From Nitrospinota bacterium (GTDB lineage: Bacteria > Nitrospinota > Nitrospinia > JACRGO01): a stretch of 18,640 nt of DNA. Positions 3,303 through 18,640 of the stretch are shown here, one piece after another (positions within the stretch are counted from its first letter, which is position 1; every line of letters starts with the position of its first letter). The notes under the pieces were generated by a model. The model saw only the letters and a program-made list of their open reading frames with translations, ran no database searches and was not told the DNA's origin. The position numbers and the translations under genes are program-made. The DNA lies in NCBI GenBank assembly GCA_016212295.1, contig JACRGO010000019.1, forward strand, positions 1 through 18,640, read 5' to 3'.

Positions 3303-3734
3303 TCAGTTAAGGCTGATTGTTTCAGGTTGTTGAGCCCCATGCGGGTGCTCTGGCCCTGCAAAAACTTTTAATTTCGTAAGCATTTTTCTGCCAAGGCGGT
3401 TTTTGGGAAGCATGCCCTGCACCGCGTTTTTCAGAAGCATTGTCGGGTCCTTTTGCTTGAGCTCCCTGGCTGTGGCCGATTTCAGCCCGCCTGTGAAGCC
3501 CGTATGCCGATAATAAATCTTTCCTTCTTCCTTGTCGCCCGTCAACCGGACTTTTTGAACATTGGTGACAATGACAAAGTCCCCGGTGTCAACGTGTGGC
3601 GTATAGGTTGGTCTATGCTTCCCTCTAAGCATGCCAGAAACCCTAACGGCGATCCTCCCTAAAACCTGGTCCGAGGCGTCTATTACAACCCATTTTCTTT
3701 CAACTGATTCTTTCTTGGCCACATAAGATTTCAT
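3303..3734 (-). CDS. rplM: 50S ribosomal protein L13
   Basis: A large-subunit ribosomal protein that binds 23S rRNA early in assembly. The 143 residues match the family from WVVIDASDQVLGRIA through LRGKHRPTYTPHVDTGD and YYRHTGFTGG to the KVFAGPEHPHGAQQPE tail. It is the first gene of the rplM-rpsI unit. A sigma-70-type promoter candidate lies about 50 bases upstream. The ribosome binding site is only AAGG at a rather long distance. Confidence 0.98.
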   Translation of the reverse strand: MKSYVAKKESVERKWVVIDASDQVLGRIAVRVSGMLRGKHRPTYTPHVDTGDFVIVTNVQKVRLTGDKEEGKIYYRHTGFTGGLKSATARELKQKDPTMLLKNAVQGMLPKNRLGRKMLTKLKVFAGPEHPHGAQQPETISLN

Positions 3735-3782
3735 GATTTTAACAACCTTATAAAGATTTTTTCCTGAAATTTAAGAATATTC

Positions 3783-3812
3783 ATTCTAATGTAATTTATT
3801 CACAAAAGTCAA
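3783..3812 (-). promoter_or_regulatory. Sigma-70-type promoter candidate for rplM-rpsI
   Basis: Read on the minus strand, TTGACT (3812-3807) and TAGAAT (3788-3783) are separated by 18 bases in an AT-rich stretch, about 50 bases before the rplM ATG. Each hexamer differs by one base from the consensus. The position suits a housekeeping ribosomal-protein promoter. Confidence 0.55.
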
Positions 3813-3921
3813 TCTCAATTCCAGAGTTATAAAATATGAGAAGCATGTAGAGAGAAAATTTGAAGGTATTTTTTCAAAATAAAGAACAAAAACATCAAGT
3901 CATTTTGGCTATGCACACCGT

Positions 3922-3953
3922 AAAAAAACGCGCGTCTCCCCTATCAATCGCGC
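3922..3953 (-). terminator. Possible terminator of the flagellar operon
   Basis: On the minus strand a short GC-only stem (GCGCG with CGCGC, loop of about 14 bases) is followed by a run of seven T. It lies about 70 bases past the stop of the last flagellar gene and before the rplM promoter. The stem is short, so the call is moderate. Confidence 0.45.
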
Positions 3954-4020
3954 CTTGAGTCTATCAAACCGATTCTTATATCTTTATAAACCGGCGGTGG
4001 ATAAAGTTCGCTGAAGCCAG

Positions 4021-4641
4021 TTATTTCCTCTTGGCTATCTTGTCGCTAAGCTTGGAGCCGGCCTCGGTGCTCATTTTTTCCAGAATCTTGGCCGCGCTCT
4101 TCCCCTTCATCTTTGAAAGAATCTGGATGGAAATGTCTTCGTCCAGCTTTTCTATCAAGGAGGCCGCTTCGCCCGGCTTCATGGAGGAATAAACCTTTAC
4201 CAGATGTTTTATGCTCCGGTCGATCAGGTCTTCCCTCGCGGTTAGTAGCTGCTCGATTTTCTTTTGAACGTCGTTCATTTTTTGCAGTTTCCCGTCTATG
4301 GTCAACTGCAGCATGTTCAGTTGCTTCTCCCTTTCATCCAGGGCCGCGCTCCTTGCGTCAAGTTCCTCGCCTCTCTTCTTCATGGTTTCCAATATTTCCA
4401 TATTGATTGCTGGAGAAGGAGAGGAGGATTGGTCCGAAGCCGGAGTATCAGCGGACTCGGCCTTGGTTTCAGCGTAAACCGCGGGAGTGTCCGGAATGGA
4501 GATGGACGCGTTAGCGCCGGCCTGGAAATAGTCCAGGAGAAGCATCCCGCTGAAACAAAGCTTCAGGGCTATTAAAAAGATAAAAGCCATTTCTATGTTT
4601 CTAAAATCCAAAAAAATGGCTGGAAGTTTTAAGGCCCTCAT
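4021..4641 (-). CDS. MotE-like flagellar protein (one membrane segment, coiled coil, MgtE-N-like C-terminus)
   Basis: A 206-residue protein with a short basic N-terminus, one membrane-spanning segment (about residues 17-36), a Ser/Pro/Ala-rich linker, a coiled coil (about 80-140) and a C-terminal helical domain (SIKHLVKVYSSMKPGEAASLIEKL, then ILSKMKGKSAAKILEKM). That C-terminus resembles the MgtE intracellular N domain. Proteins of this build are often encoded right after fliJ and are annotated MotE or 'flagellar protein'; in rhizobia MotE is a chaperone for a periplasmic motility protein. Its ATG follows the fliJ stop directly with no gap, so translation is coupled. It is not a magnesium transporter, because the transport domain is missing. 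The exact role here is unknown. Confidence 0.75.
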   Translation of the reverse strand: MRALKLPAIFLDFRNIEMAFIFLIALKLCFSGMLLLDYFQAGANASISIPDTPAVYAETKAESADTPASDQSSSPSPAINMEILETMKKRGEELDARSAALDEREKQLNMLQLTIDGKLQKMNDVQKKIEQLLTAREDLIDRSIKHLVKVYSSMKPGEAASLIEKLDEDISIQILSKMKGKSAAKILEKMSTEAGSKLSDKIAKRK

Positions 4642-5085
4642 TTATTTTTCTCCAGGCTTCCATCGAGTGGAGACGGTTTCGTCAATGAAGCTCTGTTCCG
4701 CCCTGTTTTCCTCGACAAGGTACTCTTGATATCTATGGGACTTCAATATGCTGAATATTTTACGTTTTTTCATGGCCCCCACCACCTTTTCCCGCTGCCT
4801 GTCAACCACCTCTTCAATTTTTTTAATCTTTAAATCCTGCCTCGCCGCCCTCTGTTTCATTCCTTCAATAAAATTGGCATAAAAGAAAAAATCATCCGCC
4901 GTAAAGCTTCCGCTCTCCTTTTTCTGGTCGAGGAGCGAACCGGATTGGGCGGAGTTTTGCAAATATTCAAGCTTCTTGTTGGTCTCAACGGCCAGGACGG
5001 AGCGGACCTTTCCAAGTTCCCTCTTTTCATGGTCTTCCATTTGCCGCCGGTATCTCAAAATTGTGTCCAACCTGAACCGGAACAT
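4642..5085 (-). CDS. fliJ: Flagellar export chaperone / ATPase central stalk FliJ
   Basis: A small (147-residue), highly charged, mostly coiled-coil protein beginning FRFRLDTILRYRRQMEDHEKRELGKV, the typical FliJ opening. In the type III export apparatus FliJ acts as a gamma-subunit-like stalk inside the FliI hexamer. Its ATG shares one base with the fliI stop (TAATG), which points to translational coupling. Sequence similarity in this family is weak, so context carries much of the call. Confidence 0.88.
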   Translation of the reverse strand: MFRFRLDTILRYRRQMEDHEKRELGKVRSVLAVETNKKLEYLQNSAQSGSLLDQKKESGSFTADDFFFYANFIEGMKQRAARQDLKIKKIEEVVDRQREKVVGAMKKRKIFSILKSHRYQEYLVEENRAEQSFIDETVSTRWKPGEK

Positions 5086-11185: not shown

Positions 11186-11425
11186 ATGTGCCTAGCGGTA
11201 CCTGGAAAAGTTATTAGCATTTACGAGGAAGGCGGCATGAAAATGGGCCGGGTCGACTTCGGAGGGACCGTCAAAACCGCCTGCCTGGAATATGTGCCGG
11301 AAATCCAAATAGGCCAGTACACCATCGTCCACGCCGGTTTCGCGCTCAGCATCATCAACGAAGAAGAGGCTATAAAGACCCTGGAAATTTTCGATGGACT
11401 CGCGGCGGCAGCGGCGGATGACTGA
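11186..11425 (+). CDS. hypC: [NiFe]-hydrogenase maturation chaperone HypC
   Basis: A small chaperone (79 residues) that carries the Fe(CN)2CO group with HypD and delivers it to the hydrogenase large subunit. It begins MCLAVPGKV, with the essential Cys2 exposed after Met removal, and ends with the EEEAIKTLEIFDGL helix. I chose the ATG at 11186, not an upstream ATG inside repeat DNA, because AAGGAGA lies 5 bases before it and Cys2 must be N-terminal. It overlaps hypE by 8 bases. No hypD lies between the two genes, although it often does. Confidence 0.95.
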   Translation: MCLAVPGKVISIYEEGGMKMGRVDFGGTVKTACLEYVPEIQIGQYTIVHAGFALSIINEEEAIKTLEIFDGLAAAAADD

Positions 11426-12431
11426 CGACACCATTCAACTGGCCCACGGCAGCGGCGGGAAAAAATCACACGAGCTCATACACCAGCTTTTCCTCCCCTT
11501 TTTCAATAACCCCTATCTCAATAAGCTGAATGACCAGGCGGTATTGAACTGCGGCGGCAAGCGCCTCTCGTTCAGCACTGACACATACGTGGTGGACCCA
11601 ATCTTTTTTCCTGGGGGGAACATAGGGGAGTTGGCAGTGAATGGAACGGTAAACGACGTGTGCATGTGCGGCGCCCGCCCCTTTTTCCTCAGCGCTGGTT
11701 TTATCATCGAAGAGGGGTTCTCCATTGAGGAATTAAGAGCCATCGTCAAGTCCATGCAAGAGGCGGCCAAGAGGGCCAATGTGCTTATAGTCACCGGCGA
11801 CGTCAAGGTAGTGAACAGGGGCAAGGGGGACAAGGTCTTCATCAACACTACAGGGATTGGATTCATGGAGCATGATTTAGAGCTTTCCTCGGAAAAACTC
11901 AAGCCTGGAGACGCGGTCCTTTTGAGCGGGAGCATAGGCGACCACGGCATGGCCATTCTCTCGCTGCGTGAAGGGCTTTCCTTTGAAACCACAATAAAAA
12001 GCGACACGGCCCCCTTGAACGGATTGGTGGAAGAGATCATCAAGGCCGGTGGAAGGCATGTCCGCGCCATGCGGGACCCGACGCGTGGAGGCCTGGCCGC
12101 CACGCTGAACGAATTCGCGGAGGCGTCAAAAGTGGGAATTCATATCATGGAGGACAGCTTGCCGGTCAATCCGGCCGTCCTTGGGGCCTGCGAAATCCTG
12201 GGCATTGATCCCCTTTACGTGGCAAACGAGGGGAAGCTTGTGGCCGTTGTGGCGCCGGAAGGGGAAGAGGCGGTTTTAAGGGCCATGAGGGCGCACCCCT
12301 TAGGCAAGGAGACAGCCAGGATAGGGGAAGCGGGTTATAAAAATCCGGGAATGGTTGACATGCTGACGAAAATCGGCGGCAGGCGAATAGTTGATATGCC
12401 GGTTGGGGAACAATTGCCCAGGATTTGCTAG
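11418..12431 (+). CDS. hypE: [NiFe]-hydrogenase maturation protein HypE (carbamoyl dehydratase)
   Basis: HypE receives a carbamoyl group from HypF on its C-terminal cysteine and dehydrates it, using ATP, to the thiocyanate that supplies the active-site cyanide ligands. The 337-residue protein opens with IQLAHGSGGKKSHELI. It carries the FSTDTYVVDPIFFPGGNIGELAVNGTVND and SGSIGDHGMAIL ATP-site motifs and RDPTRGGLAATLNE, and ends with the required PRIC tail. An in-frame ATG eight codons earlier (11394) exists, but homologues begin near IQLAHGSGG. Translation is probably coupled to hypC. Confidence 0.96.
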   Translation: MTDDTIQLAHGSGGKKSHELIHQLFLPFFNNPYLNKLNDQAVLNCGGKRLSFSTDTYVVDPIFFPGGNIGELAVNGTVNDVCMCGARPFFLSAGFIIEEGFSIEELRAIVKSMQEAAKRANVLIVTGDVKVVNRGKGDKVFINTTGIGFMEHDLELSSEKLKPGDAVLLSGSIGDHGMAILSLREGLSFETTIKSDTAPLNGLVEEIIKAGGRHVRAMRDPTRGGLAATLNEFAEASKVGIHIMEDSLPVNPAVLGACEILGIDPLYVANEGKLVAVVAPEGEEAVLRAMRAHPLGKETARIGEAGYKNPGMVDMLTKIGGRRIVDMPVGEQLPRIC

Positions 12432-13174: not shown

Positions 13175-13564
13175 TCAAGGCGTGATCCCAATCTCTATTA
13201 TTTTTTCAATCCTTTTCTTTAACTCTGATATATCAAAAGGTTTACAGATATAATCTTCTGAAGCCAAACTCCCCATGCCTTTGCTCATATCATCTGTTTT
13301 TGCTGTAAGAAAAACAAAAGGTATTTTTTTCCATAATGGATTTGATTTTAATTTTGTGGCAACTTCCCAGCCATTCATTCCAGGCATCATTATATCAAGA
13401 AGAATTAAGTCAGGCTTTTCTCCTTTCTCTAATAGTTTAATGCAATCTGATCCAGAACCCACTTCCAGAAATTCATAATCACTTGTAAGATGTTCAAGTC
13501 CATGCTTGACTGTATAAATCATATCAGGGTCATCATCAACCACCATTATCTTTTTTTTAGCCAT
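13175..13564 (-). CDS. Stand-alone CheY-like response regulator receiver
   Basis: A single receiver domain (129 residues) with no output domain. The acidic pocket is DDD at 10-12, the phosphorylated aspartate is Asp57 (LLDIMMPG), the switch threonine is Thr86 (FLTAK), and the conserved lysine is Lys107 (CKPF). It would act by protein contact or as a phosphorelay intermediate. GGAGG lies upstream of the ATG at a somewhat long spacing. The gene is more AT-rich than the kinase at 14881-17124. That kinase ends in an HPt domain that needs a receiver partner, so pairing is possible but unproven. Confidence 0.92.
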   Translation of the reverse strand: MAKKKIMVVDDDPDMIYTVKHGLEHLTSDYEFLEVGSGSDCIKLLEKGEKPDLILLDIMMPGMNGWEVATKLKSNPLWKKIPFVFLTAKTDDMSKGMGSLASEDYICKPFDISELKKRIEKIIEIGITP

Positions 13565-13611: not shown

Positions 13612-13819
13612 CATAGCGCGGCATGGCCGCAACCAAAATAAATTTCGATGTATTCAAACGTTCGATGATATTATTACGTGCAGGAATTTACGTTTCCGCT
13701 TGAAATAAAATCGGCGTTGAGCGTTTAAAGGAAATTTTTTTTGTTGCGGCCATGTCGCGCTATGCGACTGGCTCAAAAAATTTGCGCGGACAGCGCAAAA
13801 TTCTGAACGTAATAATATA
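13612..13819. repeat. Interleaved (apparently nested) copies of a dispersed repeat
   Basis: Block X, CATAGCGCGGCATGGCCGCAAC (13612-13633), recurs inverted with one mismatch at 13743-13764. Block Y, ATATTATTACGT followed by a related A/T and CCGC stretch (from 13668), recurs inverted, ending at 13819. The order X-Y-X'-Y' is what results if one forward copy (Y..X', as upstream of fliF) sits inside a reverse copy (X..Y'). It has no coding content. With flanking DNA it fills most of the gap between the response regulator gene and the IS remnant. Confidence 0.6.
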
Positions 13820-13913: not shown

Positions 13914-13952
13914 CCCATAATCTGATTGCTTAATAAGCAATCAGATTATGGG
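13914..13952. repeat. 39-base perfect palindrome before the DUF6788 gene
   Basis: Two 19-base arms, CCCATAATCTGATTGCTTA (13914-13932) and its exact complement (13934-13952), flank a single central A. The right arm ends in the GG that begins the GGAGG ribosome binding site of the next gene. It could be a subterminal IS structure, or a hairpin limiting translation of the accessory protein. Confidence 0.85.
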
Positions 13953-13961
13953 AGGAAAGCC

Positions 13962-14354
13962 ATGAAAGAGACGATGGAGCAGTTGGAGCGTAAAAGGAAG
14001 GGCCTGCGCCGCAAGATAGAAGAGCTTGGAGATTTGAGAAGAGGCATCATTTCGGTCAATTACCGCAAGTGCGGAAAAAGTAATTGCGCGTGCGCGAAGG
14101 AAGAGCACTCAGGCCATGGGCCGCAATATTTGTGGAATGCCACGATCAAGGGGAAGAGCCATGCCAGGAACCTGAAACTAGGGCCTGAGATATCTAAATA
14201 TATGGCGGAGACCGCCAATTACAGGAGGTTTGTGGAGCTTTGCGATGAGTTGGTGGTTGTAAACGAGCGAATCTGCAATCTGCGCCCTGTCCCCGATATC
14301 AAGGATGAGGATGAGCTTTCAGAGCTGAAAAAAAATTGCATCGTCACTTCATGA
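13962..14354 (+). CDS. DUF6788-family protein, IS-associated accessory ORF
   Basis: A 130-residue protein with an N-terminal coiled coil (about 1-30), then RRGIISVNYRKCGKSNCACA and HSGHGPQYLWNATIKGK. This is the pattern of the small DUF6788 proteins found directly upstream of ISKra4-like transposases. The Cys and His residues may bind metal. The ATG at 13962 has GGAGG 6 bases upstream; a longer frame from 13926 starts inside the palindrome and is less likely. The gene appears intact, although the following transposase is broken. It ends at a run of eight A (14328-14335), just before which the transposase frame opens. Function is unknown beyond the IS association. Confidence 0.75.
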   Translation: MKETMEQLERKRKGLRRKIEELGDLRRGIISVNYRKCGKSNCACAKEEHSGHGPQYLWNATIKGKSHARNLKLGPEISKYMAETANYRRFVELCDELVVVNERICNLRPVPDIKDEDELSELKKNCIVTS

Positions 14355-14880
14355 AGAAATACATCGGGAAGTAGACAGGATTGTGGATATATGTTTCAAG
14401 GACAAAAAGGAAGACGAACGCATGGATTTAGAATCCGTTGAGATGCGCATCCGCTAGTCGATGCGCGGCATGGGCAGGAGCATGCCTGAGCAATTGCTCA
14501 ATGAAGACAACGGCTATCGCGGCGGGGCATGGATAACTCGGGACAGGTCTGCGTCATAGGCGCCGGCGCTCCGTGGATGTGGAACATAGCGGGCGAACAG
14601 TTTTACGGGGCCACCCAGATAGTCGATCTTTATCATGCAAGGGAGCATTACTGGAATGCGGGCAGGGCGCTGATAGGCAACAGCAAGGAAGCGCTGAAGG
14701 CATGGGCTGGGGACAGGAAAAATGAATTGGGCAACGGCAAGGTGGAAGAGGTTATGGCGGCCATCAATGGCCTTTCGGCGATTACGAAAGAAGAAAAGGC
14801 GGTAAAGGAGCGAGAGAGCGGATATTTTGAAAAGAACAAGGAGCGGATGCGATACGACAAATTCCGGGGAAAAGGACTAT
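14329..14880 (+). pseudogene. ISKra4-like transposase, broken (stop, frameshift, internal and 3' deletion)
   Basis: The N-terminal piece reads SSLHEEIHREVDRIVDICF, then MDLESVEMRIR, an in-frame TAG at 14456-14458, and SMRGMGRSMPEQLL. The reading then changes frame (near 14529) into a late transposase segment: GAPWMWNIAGEQFYGATQI and VDLYHAREHYWNAGRALIG, up to [14 protein letters not shown]. The central part of the enzyme, roughly 200 residues in intact relatives as I recall them, is missing between the two pieces, as is everything after KGLF. An apparent ORF running on to 15086 is read-through into the antisense of the kinase gene. It cannot encode an active transposase. Confidence 0.75.
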
Positions 14881-17124
14881 TTACATGGCAGAGCTTCGGC
14901 GAGGCAAAGCTGCCGGCGCGTCTTCCGCGACTTGGCGGCTTCCCATCACCGCGACAATCCGCTCCAGCAGGACAGCCAACTCCTGCTCCATCGCATCCAA
15001 CGCCGGAGCCAAGCCATCGACCTCGCCACGATTCAACATGCCCTCGACCATGGCGGCGCGCTCGGCCATTTTCAGGGCGCCAATAGTGCCCGCCTGCCCC
15101 TTCACCGTATGCGCCGCGCGCGCGGCTGTTTCCGTTTCGTTGTTTTCAATGGCTGTTTTAATGCGCGACATGACATCCGCTTGGGTTTCGTTGAAACGGT
15201 TGATCTGCCTGCGCAATAGCTTAACGTTGCCGCCGAGGCACCGCAATGCCTTGTCTATTTCCATGCCGGGGATATCGGGCACATCATCGTCTTTCTCCGC
15301 TATCGCAATGTTTGATTCAGCGCTTGATTCAGCGGCGGCCGCCTTGGGTTTAATCCAACGTCCCAGCGCGATGAAGAGCTGGCCGGCGTCAATCGGTTTT
15401 CCGATGTGGTCATTCATGCCGCATTCGATGCACTTCTCTTTGTCGCCTGCCATTGCGTTGGCTGTCATGGCGAGAATCGGAAGATGGGCAAAACGCTTGT
15501 CTTCACGAATCTTGCGTGTGGCATCGAAGCCGTCCATCACAGGCATCTGGCAGTCCATCAGCACGCCGTCGTAATCGGCCCGCGCTACCTTCTCCACGGC
15601 CTCCGCGCCATTGTTGGCGACATCAACTCGAATACCAGCGGCCACGAGAATTTCCAACGCCAGTTCCTGATTGACAGCGTTGTCTTCCACCAGCAACAGA
15701 TACGCGCCGCGCATGGTTTTTTCCGCGGCAAGATAAGCATCCTGCCGTTCCTTTTTGCGCGGGCGCCGCAATGCCTCCTTGCCAAAGGCGTTGAGTATGC
15801 CGCCGATCAAGGTGGACGGACTCACTGGTTTGACCAACACTCCTTCGATTTGAGTGTCATGCGCCCGCTGCAGCAATTCATCCCGGCTGTAAGCGGTCAC
15901 CATGATGACTGATGGAGTATGCGCCAGCTTGGCATCGGCGCGGATGTGCTTGATGGTTTCAATGCCATCCATGCCCGGCATCATCCAGTCCATCAGCGCC
16001 AGACCATAAGGTTTGCCTTCTATCTGGCCCTGCTCCAGTTCGCCGATAGCTTCCGCTCCGCTGCTTACGGCGGTCGCGTCGAACTTTAGCGACGCCAGCA
16101 TCGACACCAGGATTTCACGCGCGCTGGCATTATCGTCCACCACCATAACGCGCAATCCAGACACCTCCTCCGAGGGAGTAACGAAGTGACTCTGCCCGGG
16201 CTGTAAACCGAATTTCGCGGTGAAATGGAACTTGCTGCCGACGCCGGGTTCGCTCTCCACGCAAATCTCGCCGCCCATCATTTCCACCAGGCATTTGCTG
16301 ATGGCCAAGCCCAGGCCGGTGCCGCCGTATTTCCGGGTGGTCGAAGCATCGGCCTGGGAGAAGGCGCTGAACAGCTTGCTGCCCTGCTCCCCGGTAAGGC
16401 CGATGCCGGTGTCTGCCACATCAAAGCGCAAATGCACGCCTTCCGGCCCGTCGGCGCTCTTGTGGACGCCCACGGTAATTTCGCCTTTCTCGGTGAACTT
16501 GATGGCGTTGTTGACCAGGTTAATCAATACCTGGCCCAGCCGGAGGGGATCGCCGACGAGCGCGGTCGGCACATCGGCGCCCATATCGAACAGCAGTTCC
16601 AGCCCTTTATCCTGCGCCTTGATAACGGAAAGATCAGCCAAGTGTTCCATGACATCTTCCAAATAGAAGGCAGTGCGCTCAAGCTGCATTTTGCCCGCTT
16701 CAATCTTGGAGGAATCAAGTATGTCGTTTATGATGCCGAGCAGGCTCCTGGCAGCGGAATCCACTTTCTCTATGTAATTGCGCTGCCTGGCGTTCAGGCC
16801 GGTTTGCAAGGCCAGATGTGACATGCCGATGATGGCGTTCATCGGCGTGCGGATCTCGTGGCTCATGTTGGCGAGAAAATCGCTTTTCGCGCGGTTGGCG
16901 GCGTCCGCTGCCTCTTTTGCCTTCTGTAATTCAGCCTCTATGCGCTTGCGCGCGGCAATCTCCTGCTCCAGTTGAAGATTTTTCCTTTCAATATCTGAAT
17001 GCGTAGAGGCAAGTTCGCTGTAGAGATTTTCCACTTGTTTTATTACTGTGCGGAAAACCTCTTCTTGTATTTCAAATTCCTTTACCTTTGCCGAAAGTTC
17101 ATCGTATGTGGGTTGGGGGTCCAT
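14881..17124 (-). CDS. Soluble hybrid histidine kinase, HisKA-HATPase-REC-REC-HPt
   Basis: A 747-residue multi-step phosphorelay kinase without membrane segments. Residues 1-80 are an N-terminal coiled coil opening [14 protein letters not shown]. HisKA follows with His89 ([11 protein letters not shown]). The ATPase domain has its N-box near 202-208, G1 DTGIG (238-242) and GTGLGL (269-274). REC1 has Asp330/331, Asp379 and Lys432; REC2 has Asp481, Asp524 and Lys576; the HPt domain has His672 ([10 protein letters not shown]). All phosphotransfer residues are intact. There is no PAS, GAF or other sensor domain, so input must come from a partner. It lies 136 bases downstream of the hydrogenase gene on the same strand with no strong terminator between. 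No Shine-Dalgarno is visible before the ATG. The gene is visibly richer in G+C than the hydrogenase gene and the receiver gene, which hints at separate origin. Confidence 0.95.
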
Positions 17125-17260: not shown

Positions 17261-18640
17261 TTAATGCACGGCACAGACAAGACATGGGTCATAAGAGCGT
17301 ATCACATGTTCAATCTCAACCGGGTTGCTCTCATCTTCCACCGGCAAACCTAAAAGGGATTTTTCCAGGGCGCCAGGGGTTTCCCTCTCATCCAGCGGAG
17401 AGGCATTCCATCCGGTAGGCGTTATTACCTGGTAGTTCTTTATCTTTCTATTTTCAACACTTATCCAGTGTCCCAGCATACCCCTTGCCGCCTCTGTAAG
17501 ACCAATGCCTTCCGCATTTTGTTTAAGGGTGTTTTTAGCATAATAATTCTCGTCCGGACTTAATTCATCCGCCCATTTATCCATAATATCCAGCAGCTTA
17601 ACTGCCTCATGCAGGCGCGCAAAGACCCTTGTGAAGACAGTCGAGCCATGCTTTGAAAATAATTCCGTTATAAGGTTATCCCCGCATATAAGCTGTCTGC
17701 CTAAAGCGCCGACTTCAACAACTTCCCCGTTATAGCGAGGCGCCTTGCCCCAGCTATAGGCCTTCGGTTTGCCCCATTTCGGCTCTGAGGCATCTCTCTC
17801 AGGAGCAGAAACCGGGTTTTCCGAATCAAAAAACGAATATTTAATTGATTCAGTTATTTTCCCTGCATCGAGCGGAGACACTCCATTGTCCCGGTAACCT
17901 GCCGGCATGAATAGCTGCCCCTCAGTCAGTGGATATGCGCATGCGGCAATAAATTTACCCGGCCCTTTTCCCATACCAAGAAACCCTGCCTCTTTTGCAA
18001 AAAAATAAAACAGGGCAAGATCCGATCTGTTAATGCTATCTTCCATGAAAGCAGAGTCAAAATCATTTATGGACTTTATTTTAAGATAATCCTTGACAGG
18101 CATTCCGAGCAGAACCGTTTCCATTACAGCCGTAAAATGTTTAAGGACGCTTTTTATGCGAAGGATATCGGAAGTTGTGAGCGCTTTTGTGATGCCGCCA
18201 GGCTGTATAGCAAGGGTGTGGGGCCATTTCCCGCATATCAGGCCGAGTATCTCCAGAAACCTCTTCCTTTCACTTATTATGGTTTTTACAGATTCCCCTT
18301 TTAACCCTGCCAGCCGTTTTTCCAGGGCAGGATAATATTCAAGCCCGGCGTATTTTTTATTTAACAGGTCAGGCGCGAAATAGAGATAAAACTGCGTGAT
18401 ATGGCTCATGGAGTTTTCCGTGGCATGGCTTATGTTTTTTGCGTATTGACCGCTTCTCGAAGGGGTAAAATCCTCGGATATCGCCGCGAGGGCATTTGAG
18501 GACGCCACGGAATGAGAGATGGAACATATCCCGCAAATCCGGGGGGTATAGACAAGGGCGTCCTCCGGGAAGTGCCCTTTAAGAATATATTCAAAACCGC
18601 GAAACATGACCCCCGAAGCCTTTGCCTCAAATATCCTGCC
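17261..18640 (-). CDS. [NiFe]-hydrogenase large subunit, group 2-like, no C-terminal extension (5' end outside window)
   Basis: The catalytic subunit carrying the Ni-Fe centre. The frame is open to the right edge (GRIFEAKASGVMFRGFEYIL), so MFRGFE is internal and the true start lies beyond the window; 459 residues are visible. The first cysteine motif is PRICGICSISHS and the second is DPCLVCAVH at the very end. The stop codon follows the His directly, whereas catalytic enzymes usually carry a tail of about 10-25 residues that a protease removes. Regulatory (HupV/HoxC) subunits lack that tail, as do some energy-converting ones (CooH). The motifs and the N-x2-H..FYLYFAPDL pattern suggest group 2. 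The small subunit should lie upstream, outside the window. I leave the symbol blank because hupL, hupV and hoxC cannot be separated on this evidence. Confidence 0.93.
   Translation of the reverse strand, partial: GRIFEAKASGVMFRGFEYILKGHFPEDALVYTPRICGICSISHSVASSNALAAISEDFTPSRSGQYAKNISHATENSMSHITQFYLYFAPDLLNKKYAGLEYYPALEKRLAGLKGESVKTIISERKRFLEILGLICGKWPHTLAIQPGGITKALTTSDILRIKSVLKHFTAVMETVLLGMPVKDYLKIKSINDFDSAFMEDSINRSDLALFYFFAKEAGFLGMGKGPGKFIAACAYPLTEGQLFMPAGYRDNGVSPLDAGKITESIKYSFFDSENPVSAPERDASEPKWGKPKAYSWGKAPRYNGEVVEVGALGRQLICGDNLITELFSKHGSTVFTRVFARLHEAVKLLDIMDKWADELSPDENYYAKNTLKQNAEGIGLTEAARGMLGHWISVENRKIKNYQVITPTGWNASPLDERETPGALEKSLLGLPVEDESNPVEIEHVIRSYDPCLVCAVH

Follow-up and report, generated by a model that had tools for sequence, protein, structure and literature searches.

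The DNA analyzed here, a window of 18,640 nucleotides that constitutes the complete contig C161 of a 3.74-Mb genome in 237 contigs (G000), probably carries most of a cytoplasmic, tail-less [NiFe]-hydrogenase that senses H2, together with a hybrid histidine kinase to which it would dock, and this putative sensor belongs to a horizontally spread clade that is probably the sister of group 2b. The reading is based on gene order, the absence of a C-terminal tail and of a Tat signal, residue patterns, homology of a kinase helix, phylogeny, and purifying selection, and it suggests that the cell most likely uses the product of the hydrogenase gene to gauge H2, not to burn it as fuel. We infer H2 as the signal, the kinase helix as the docking site, and cyclic di-GMP as the output.

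The large-subunit gene (PF00374, 249 bits) occupies positions 17261..18640 on the minus strand and encodes residues 25-483 of 483; its frame stops at 17261 and leaves the window at 18640. The first 24 codons sit on contig C9 of the same genome, whose last 141 bases overlap exactly with the first 141 bases of the minus strand of the window. Joining the two contigs yielded a large subunit of 483 amino acids (MAKIIISPFNRVEGDL...RSYDPCLVCAVH), and the join is supported by the orthologous loci, which have the same small-large order. The sequence-only reading had claimed that the protein terminates with DPCLVCAVH directly before TAA, with no C-terminal peptide, and this was borne out by the window itself, where positions 17290-17261 of the minus strand read gac cca tgt ctt gtc tgt gcc gtg cat taa (L2 motif, 17261..17290), by phmmer, in whose alignment the frame runs through to the final residue of the mature [NiFe] large subunits, so that its end is the true C-terminus, and by the same end in four orthologues. 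Its description of the L1 and L2 motifs as group 2-like also held, L1 being RICGICSISH (18512..18541, minus strand). The orthologous large subunits are 84% (locus L132), 80% (L138), 68% (L160), and 65% (L161) identical to the window protein and derive from a Nitrospinota-labelled MAG (L132, with L041), G343, G418, and G399, respectively. Since all four, from other genomes, stop after the same ligand His, a sequencing error hiding a longer tail was ruled out.

To place the missing tail in context, we compared 47 large subunits, comprising 29 group 2b, five window-clade, six 2a, four 2c, and two group 1-type proteins and the protein of locus L139. The tail was absent from 29/29 2b and 5/5 window-clade proteins and from that of L139; it was present in all six 2a proteins (15-20 aa), all four 2c proteins (13-17 aa), and both group 1-type proteins. 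The host genome encodes a second large subunit (L001, contig C130) that bears a 15-aa tail, and the absence is therefore specific to the window gene within this genome. No maturation protease was recognized beside the window gene or in the L138, L160, and L161 loci; a protease gene lies close by in the 2a and 2c loci whose neighbourhoods were read. According to a 2025 review, groups 2b, 2d, 4c, and 4e are the tail-less exceptions among the [NiFe] groups (PMC12134894), and proteolysis is not required for HoxC (PMC10073562). With no C-terminal peptide to remove, the small/large [NiFe]-hydrogenase of the window would mature without proteolysis.

The sequence-only reading had also proposed that a sensor should be accompanied by a small subunit without a signal peptide, and such a subunit was found on the overlapping contig C9, just upstream of the large subunit (L009:11698-12675; 325 aa; PF14720 and PF01058). 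It begins MKNLLSLHGLGCGGD, only 11 residues ahead of the first cluster Cys, which leaves no room for a Tat leader; by its sequence, the small subunit is cytoplasmic and without a Tat signal. Its C-terminal extension (LPRDVAKAWYIGIVGLSKMATPERLTNNA) aligns with that of the 2b small subunits (LPTDMPKAWFVALASLSKSATPKRVKANA). Residue 251 is Cys in the window clade and in 2b and Lys in 2a and 2c, and we read this Cys as the fourth ligand of the medial cluster. Position 15, which in 2b holds the second Cys of a CxxC motif, is Cys in 29/29 2b proteins, Asn in 2a, and Asp in 2c and in 5/5 clade members. Compared with the twelve Cys of three [4Fe-4S] clusters, the window protein thus has Asp for Cys15, keeps Cys251, and has an extra Cys235, which is found in the window clade and L139 and is absent from 2a, 2c, and 2b (Ala/Val235 in the last). 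The extra Cys235 and an acidic residue 15 co-occur in the clade and in L139 (L009:11740-12402, residues 15 and 235), a pairing that possibly reflects a swap of cluster ligands.

The large subunit is similarly mixed. Eleven of its positions, including Ser64 and Ser68 around L1, are common to the window clade and 2b, against 2a and 2c. Tyr111 (18380..18382, minus strand), at the position of F110 in HoxC, is predicted to be an aromatic gas-channel residue together with Ile62 in L1; in RH, the gas-channel pair is I62/F110. In contrast, position 67 (Q67 of HoxC), which is Gln in all 29 2b proteins compared, is His in 5/5 clade members as it is in 2a and 2c. The Gln in L1 and the twelve Cys have been named as RH features (PMC5665086), and by this strict test the window protein is not a 2b member. 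It nonetheless looks made to work as a 2b protein would.

Phylogenetic analysis separated the window clade from all these groups. In a large-subunit tree (IQ-TREE, LG+C20+F+G4 PMSF, 47 rows, none from groups 2d or 2e), the window clade was supported at 100/100, and 2b was monophyletic without it at 100/99 to 100/100. The two were joined as sisters with moderate support (93/80), with L139 basal to both at 99/93, and 2a and 2c fell together outside this tail-less lineage. Forcing the window clade together with 2c was rejected (AU p = 0.00077), which disposed of group 2c membership; forcing it with 2a and 2c together was barely disfavoured (AU p = 0.047). The small-subunit tree again recovered a separate window clade and left its deeper position unsettled. 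Taken together, the two trees and the AU tests indicate that the window protein lies in a distinct clade that is most likely sister to 2b rather than nested within it, and this branch beside the known bacterial H2 sensors has apparently not been described before. In the placement that the sequence-only reading had asked for, the protein groups with the tail-less, kinase-linked lineage (99/93) and outside the tailed uptake groups, but as a clade beside 2b and not within it. The nearest named proteins are 2b sensors (Variovorax, 42-43% identity; HoxC, 38%). Among solved structures, the best match to the large subunit was PDB 7utd, Huc of group 2a, and no regulatory-hydrogenase structure was among the matches listed.

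In the window, as in L132, L138, L160, L161, and L139, the large-subunit gene is directly followed by a kinase gene. The window kinase (14881..17124, minus strand; 747 aa), the probable partner of the hydrogenase, is a hybrid histidine kinase with the order HisKA-HATPase-REC-REC-Hpt and no PAS. Its body is a hybrid of the HEIRTP type unrelated to the PAS-HELNNP kinases of 2b, but its N-terminal helix (16939..17112, minus strand) is homologous to the N-terminus of HoxJ/HupT, and we propose this helix as the hydrogenase-docking or input element. In HoxJ-type kinases, TWLDVIQKMDEVYSQLVQDEVELEKKNEELEQ precedes the PAS. When 5268 ORFs from the loci of the 2b search were screened with a profile built on six window-clade kinase N-termini, it matched HoxJ-type (HELNNP) kinases of 68 loci at 10.6-30.7 bits, with the next match at E 6.6. 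Conversely, a profile built from HoxJ sequences only matched all the clade kinases (window kinase, E 5.6e-6) and that of L139 against 3544 background ORFs, followed at E 0.55 by a fragment at a contig end. With about 35 residues the shared helix is short, and it is probably a coiled coil; with that caveat, a generic coiled coil was rejected as the explanation, the reciprocal profiles matching sensor-linked kinases only. Within G000, where the kinase query returned at least 30 matches besides this one, the helix was found in this kinase only; because the profile includes the window kinase, the informative part is the absence of the helix from the others.

The bodies that bear the helix comprise hybrids without PAS (window and L138), a PAS-hybrid (L161), and the PAS-HELNNP kinases of 2b. 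On the simplest reading, which is our inference, the hydrogenase addresses the kinase through this helix. In G399, the helix also occurs on a second kinase-sized frame of 433 aa away from the hydrogenase locus (G399:C65:56252-56425; E 3.5e-22). The L132 kinase has an additional Cys-rich N-terminal stretch without a Pfam match (L132:775-1075; NCWEFKKCGREPGG...CWAVAGTLCGG...CMVCDF), which is absent from the window kinase.

The 3' end of the window kinase gene is broken. Its homology with the 813-residue kinase of L138 extends no further than residue 736 of the latter, after the Hpt, and the protein lacks about 77 C-terminal residues. At this end lies an ORF (14529..15086, plus strand) with a remnant of an ISKra4-family transposase (NF033572; 93 bits, below the cut-off of 205; model positions 254-377 of 422 over the first 118 aa), and this IS remnant removes the last residues of the kinase. 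A DUF6788 protein (13926..14354, plus strand; PF20586) likely belongs to the same insertion element; adjoining these two genes are a 33-nt inverted repeat pair (88%) and a perfect 19-bp palindrome (window 13612-13764 and 13914-13952). Beyond the IS remnant, the window encodes a single-domain response regulator (13175..13564, minus strand; PF00072), a possible phosphorelay partner, as well as the [NiFe] cofactor scaffold chaperone HypC (11186..11425, plus strand; TIGR00074, 69 bits, cut-off 48) and HypE for cyanide-ligand synthesis (11394..12431, plus strand; TIGR02124, 467 bits). No HD-GYP gene follows the window kinase, and no linked GGDEF/EAL protein was found in the window. Given the kinase residues lost beside the IS remnant and the HD-GYP gene not being adjacent, local signalling output in the host genome may be impaired.

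The most complete operon found, L138, encodes in order the HypC-HydE fusion, HydG, HypA, and HypB (the latter two assigned by eye), the small and large subunits, a hybrid kinase, a REC-HD-GYP protein, a second hybrid kinase that also bears the helix, a REC-GGDEF protein, and a REC protein. In L132, the protein after the kinase closely resembles the REC-HD-GYP protein, and L160 carries the large subunit, the second kinase type (its frame split into two ORFs), and REC-GGDEF-like and REC proteins, the REC-GGDEF assignment being by sequence similarity. The REC-HD-GYP and REC-GGDEF proteins of intact orthologous operons point to the level of cyclic di-GMP as the probable output, which these gene orders suggest well for the clade and indirectly for the host genome. 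In the latter, an 80% identical REC-HD-GYP protein is encoded on contig C127 after a paralogous kinase. On the same contig lies what remains of a second sensor small subunit (L158:4420-4632; residues 131-201, 77-89% identical), which adjoins the paralogous hybrid kinase (L158:4577-9260); there, a membrane/Cache-like sensor replaces the helix, an apparent swap of the input domain, and the REC-HD-GYP gene follows. At locus L162 (L162:8896-13099), a 2c-like tailed hydrogenase is followed by an apparent protease, a hybrid kinase, and a REC protein, with no diguanylate cyclase, as judged by eye.

The sensor operon is headed in two relatives by the HypC-HydE fusion (TIGR03956, about 275 bits, plus a HypC domain) and HydG (TIGR03955, about 534-545 bits), located at L138:1341-2636 and 3376-4752 and at L160:16288-17580 and 14912-16291. 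No [FeFe]-hydrogenase (PF02906) was found in the L138 and L160 genomes, which may be incomplete. HydG and HypC-HydE could supply the [NiFe] site with its CO ligand by radical-SAM chemistry; the anaerobic origin of this ligand has been called unresolved (PMC12134894).

The system was present in 1 of 77 genomes of the host's own phylum, in 1 of 24 of the phylum of the Nitrospinota-labelled genome, and in 3 of 75 of the class of G343. The other 76 same-phylum genomes, one of them from the same genus, yielded no orthologues above E 1e-40, and no relatives were found on viral contigs. Between genomes of different groups dS is unsaturated (about 0.5-0.9), which argues for recent horizontal transfer, and dN/dS values of 0.12-0.25 for the large subunit, small subunit, and kinase indicate purifying selection; for the window lineage, the ratio reflects mainly the period preceding the IS insertion.

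Where the sequence-only reading had left the choice between a sensor and a protease-independent enzyme, the sensor gained support from the tail-less, kinase-linked lineage, the leaderless small subunit, the absence of a recognized protease nearby, and the HoxJ-type N-terminus of the kinase. In the model that we propose, H2 would bind and be slowly oxidized at the NiFe site, and as a result the FeS chain would change its redox state, the dimer its conformation, or both. The signal would be relayed by contact between the hydrogenase and the kinase's N-terminal helix, which HoxJ and HupT also have; autophosphorylation would change, as would the flow along HisKA-REC-REC-Hpt towards a response regulator. 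The likely regulators of the intact orthologous operons, REC-HD-GYP and REC-GGDEF proteins, would then adjust the level of cyclic di-GMP.

Other explanations account for part of these data. The protein could be a protease-independent, cytoplasmic, catalytic uptake hydrogenase that passes H2 electrons to a soluble acceptor, with the kinase adjacent by chance or for another process. The catalytic-type His in L1 and the 2c-like Asp at the proximal position fit such an enzyme, and tail-less catalytic enzymes exist among groups 4c/4e (PMC12134894); nevertheless, no electron-acceptor gene was recognized adjacent in the loci read, each locus has a kinase with the HoxJ N-terminus after its hydrogenase genes, and the window clade and 2b have derived sensor features in common, which together make a fuel enzyme improbable. 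We consider it equally doubtful that the protein is an ordinary, if divergent, group 2b sensor (HupV/HoxC). An identity-based classifier would probably assign it to 2b, its nearest named relatives being 2b proteins (42-43% identity) of the same architecture, but 2b is monophyletic (about 100/100) without the window clade, Gln67 and Cys15 of 29/29 2b proteins are His and Asp in 5/5 clade members, and the kinase body is unrelated (hybrid HEIRTP versus PAS-HELNNP).

Membership of HydDB group 2d (Aquificae-type) would agree with the listing of that group as tail-less (PMC12134894) and with the unresolved, possibly regulatory role that HydDB assigns to it. No Aquificota were among the best 80 matches listed in a genome scan that required exact peptide patterns. 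We regard membership of 2d as unlikely. A further view holds the locus to be a decaying remnant, a sensor severed from its output by the IS and non-functional in the host genome. The kinase 3' end missing beside the ISKra4 remnant, the HD-GYP gene not being adjacent, and the second copy on C127, already without most of its small subunit, speak for decay. Against it stand the retention of all catalytic domains and the Hpt in the window kinase, the dN/dS of 0.12-0.25, though mainly pre-insertion, and the persistence of the 80%-identical REC-HD-GYP gene on C127. Complete loss of function seems rather unlikely.

It is possible, though somewhat short of probable, that the clade is a separate subgroup of [NiFe] H2 sensors that controls cyclic-di-GMP turnover and uses a single conserved N-terminal helix to couple to kinases with unrelated bodies, be they PAS-hybrids, hybrids without PAS, or hybrids with a Cys-rich domain. 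The HoxJ-type helix would then be a general H2 input port, sensing could dispense with both Gln67 and the proximal cluster's fourth Cys, and HydG and HypC-HydE in two relatives would represent a radical-SAM route to the [NiFe] CO ligand. The mode of H2 signalling from regulatory hydrogenase to kinase is still under investigation (PMC6978683). A sister lineage that has only the N-terminal helix in common with HoxJ, on kinase bodies otherwise unrelated, points to this helix as the hydrogenase contact, an idea that deleting or transplanting the helix would test directly. In addition, the clade separates possible needs of sensing (tail absence, small-subunit extension, helix) from possible peculiarities of 2b (Gln67, twelfth Cys), and annotation rules that take the L1 Gln as the mark of a sensor would overlook its proteins. 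If the cyclic-di-GMP link holds, H2 would govern, for example, motility or attachment in uncultured bacteria, beyond hydrogenase expression. Our literature searches on "group 2c" hydrogenases, on the input domain of HoxJ, and on HD-GYP proteins in H2 sensing returned nothing directly on point. What appears new here is a sister clade whose residues are mixed, a kinase helix that is shared although the bodies are unrelated, and a likely cyclic-di-GMP output.

Among known systems, group 2a (Huc/HupSL) shares with the window clade the cytoplasmic small subunit, the L1 His, and the best structure match (Huc), but differs in its tail and protease and in having no kinase neighbour in the loci read. 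Group 2c, a diguanylate cyclase-linked putative sensor according to HydDB, has in common a predicted signalling role, the small-subunit CGGD motif, the L1 His, and, through the probable output of the clade, a cyclic-di-GMP link, whereas its tails of 13-17 aa, the Lys at the medial position, and its place in another clade set it apart. The L139 system (L139:5796-9901; genome G249) is likewise tail-less, with the L1 His, an acidic position 15 (Glu), Cys235, and the HoxJ helix, yet it is about 40% identical, has RVCGQCGLAH as L1, a PAS kinase, and a next regulator resembling the NtrC type, and is basal in the tail-less lineage. The most extensive comparison is with the 2b systems HoxBC-HoxJ (Cupriavidus necator) and HupUV-HupT, which share the lack of a C-terminal peptide, the cytoplasmic location, the small-subunit extension, the fourth medial-cluster Cys, the Ile and aromatic gas-channel residues, and a linked kinase bearing the helix. 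The window clade differs from them by His for Gln67, Asp for Cys15, the extra Cys235, and a clade of its own; the window kinase is a HisKA-REC-REC-Hpt hybrid without PAS, and the probable outputs in the orthologues are HD-GYP and GGDEF proteins in place of the HoxA-type activator.
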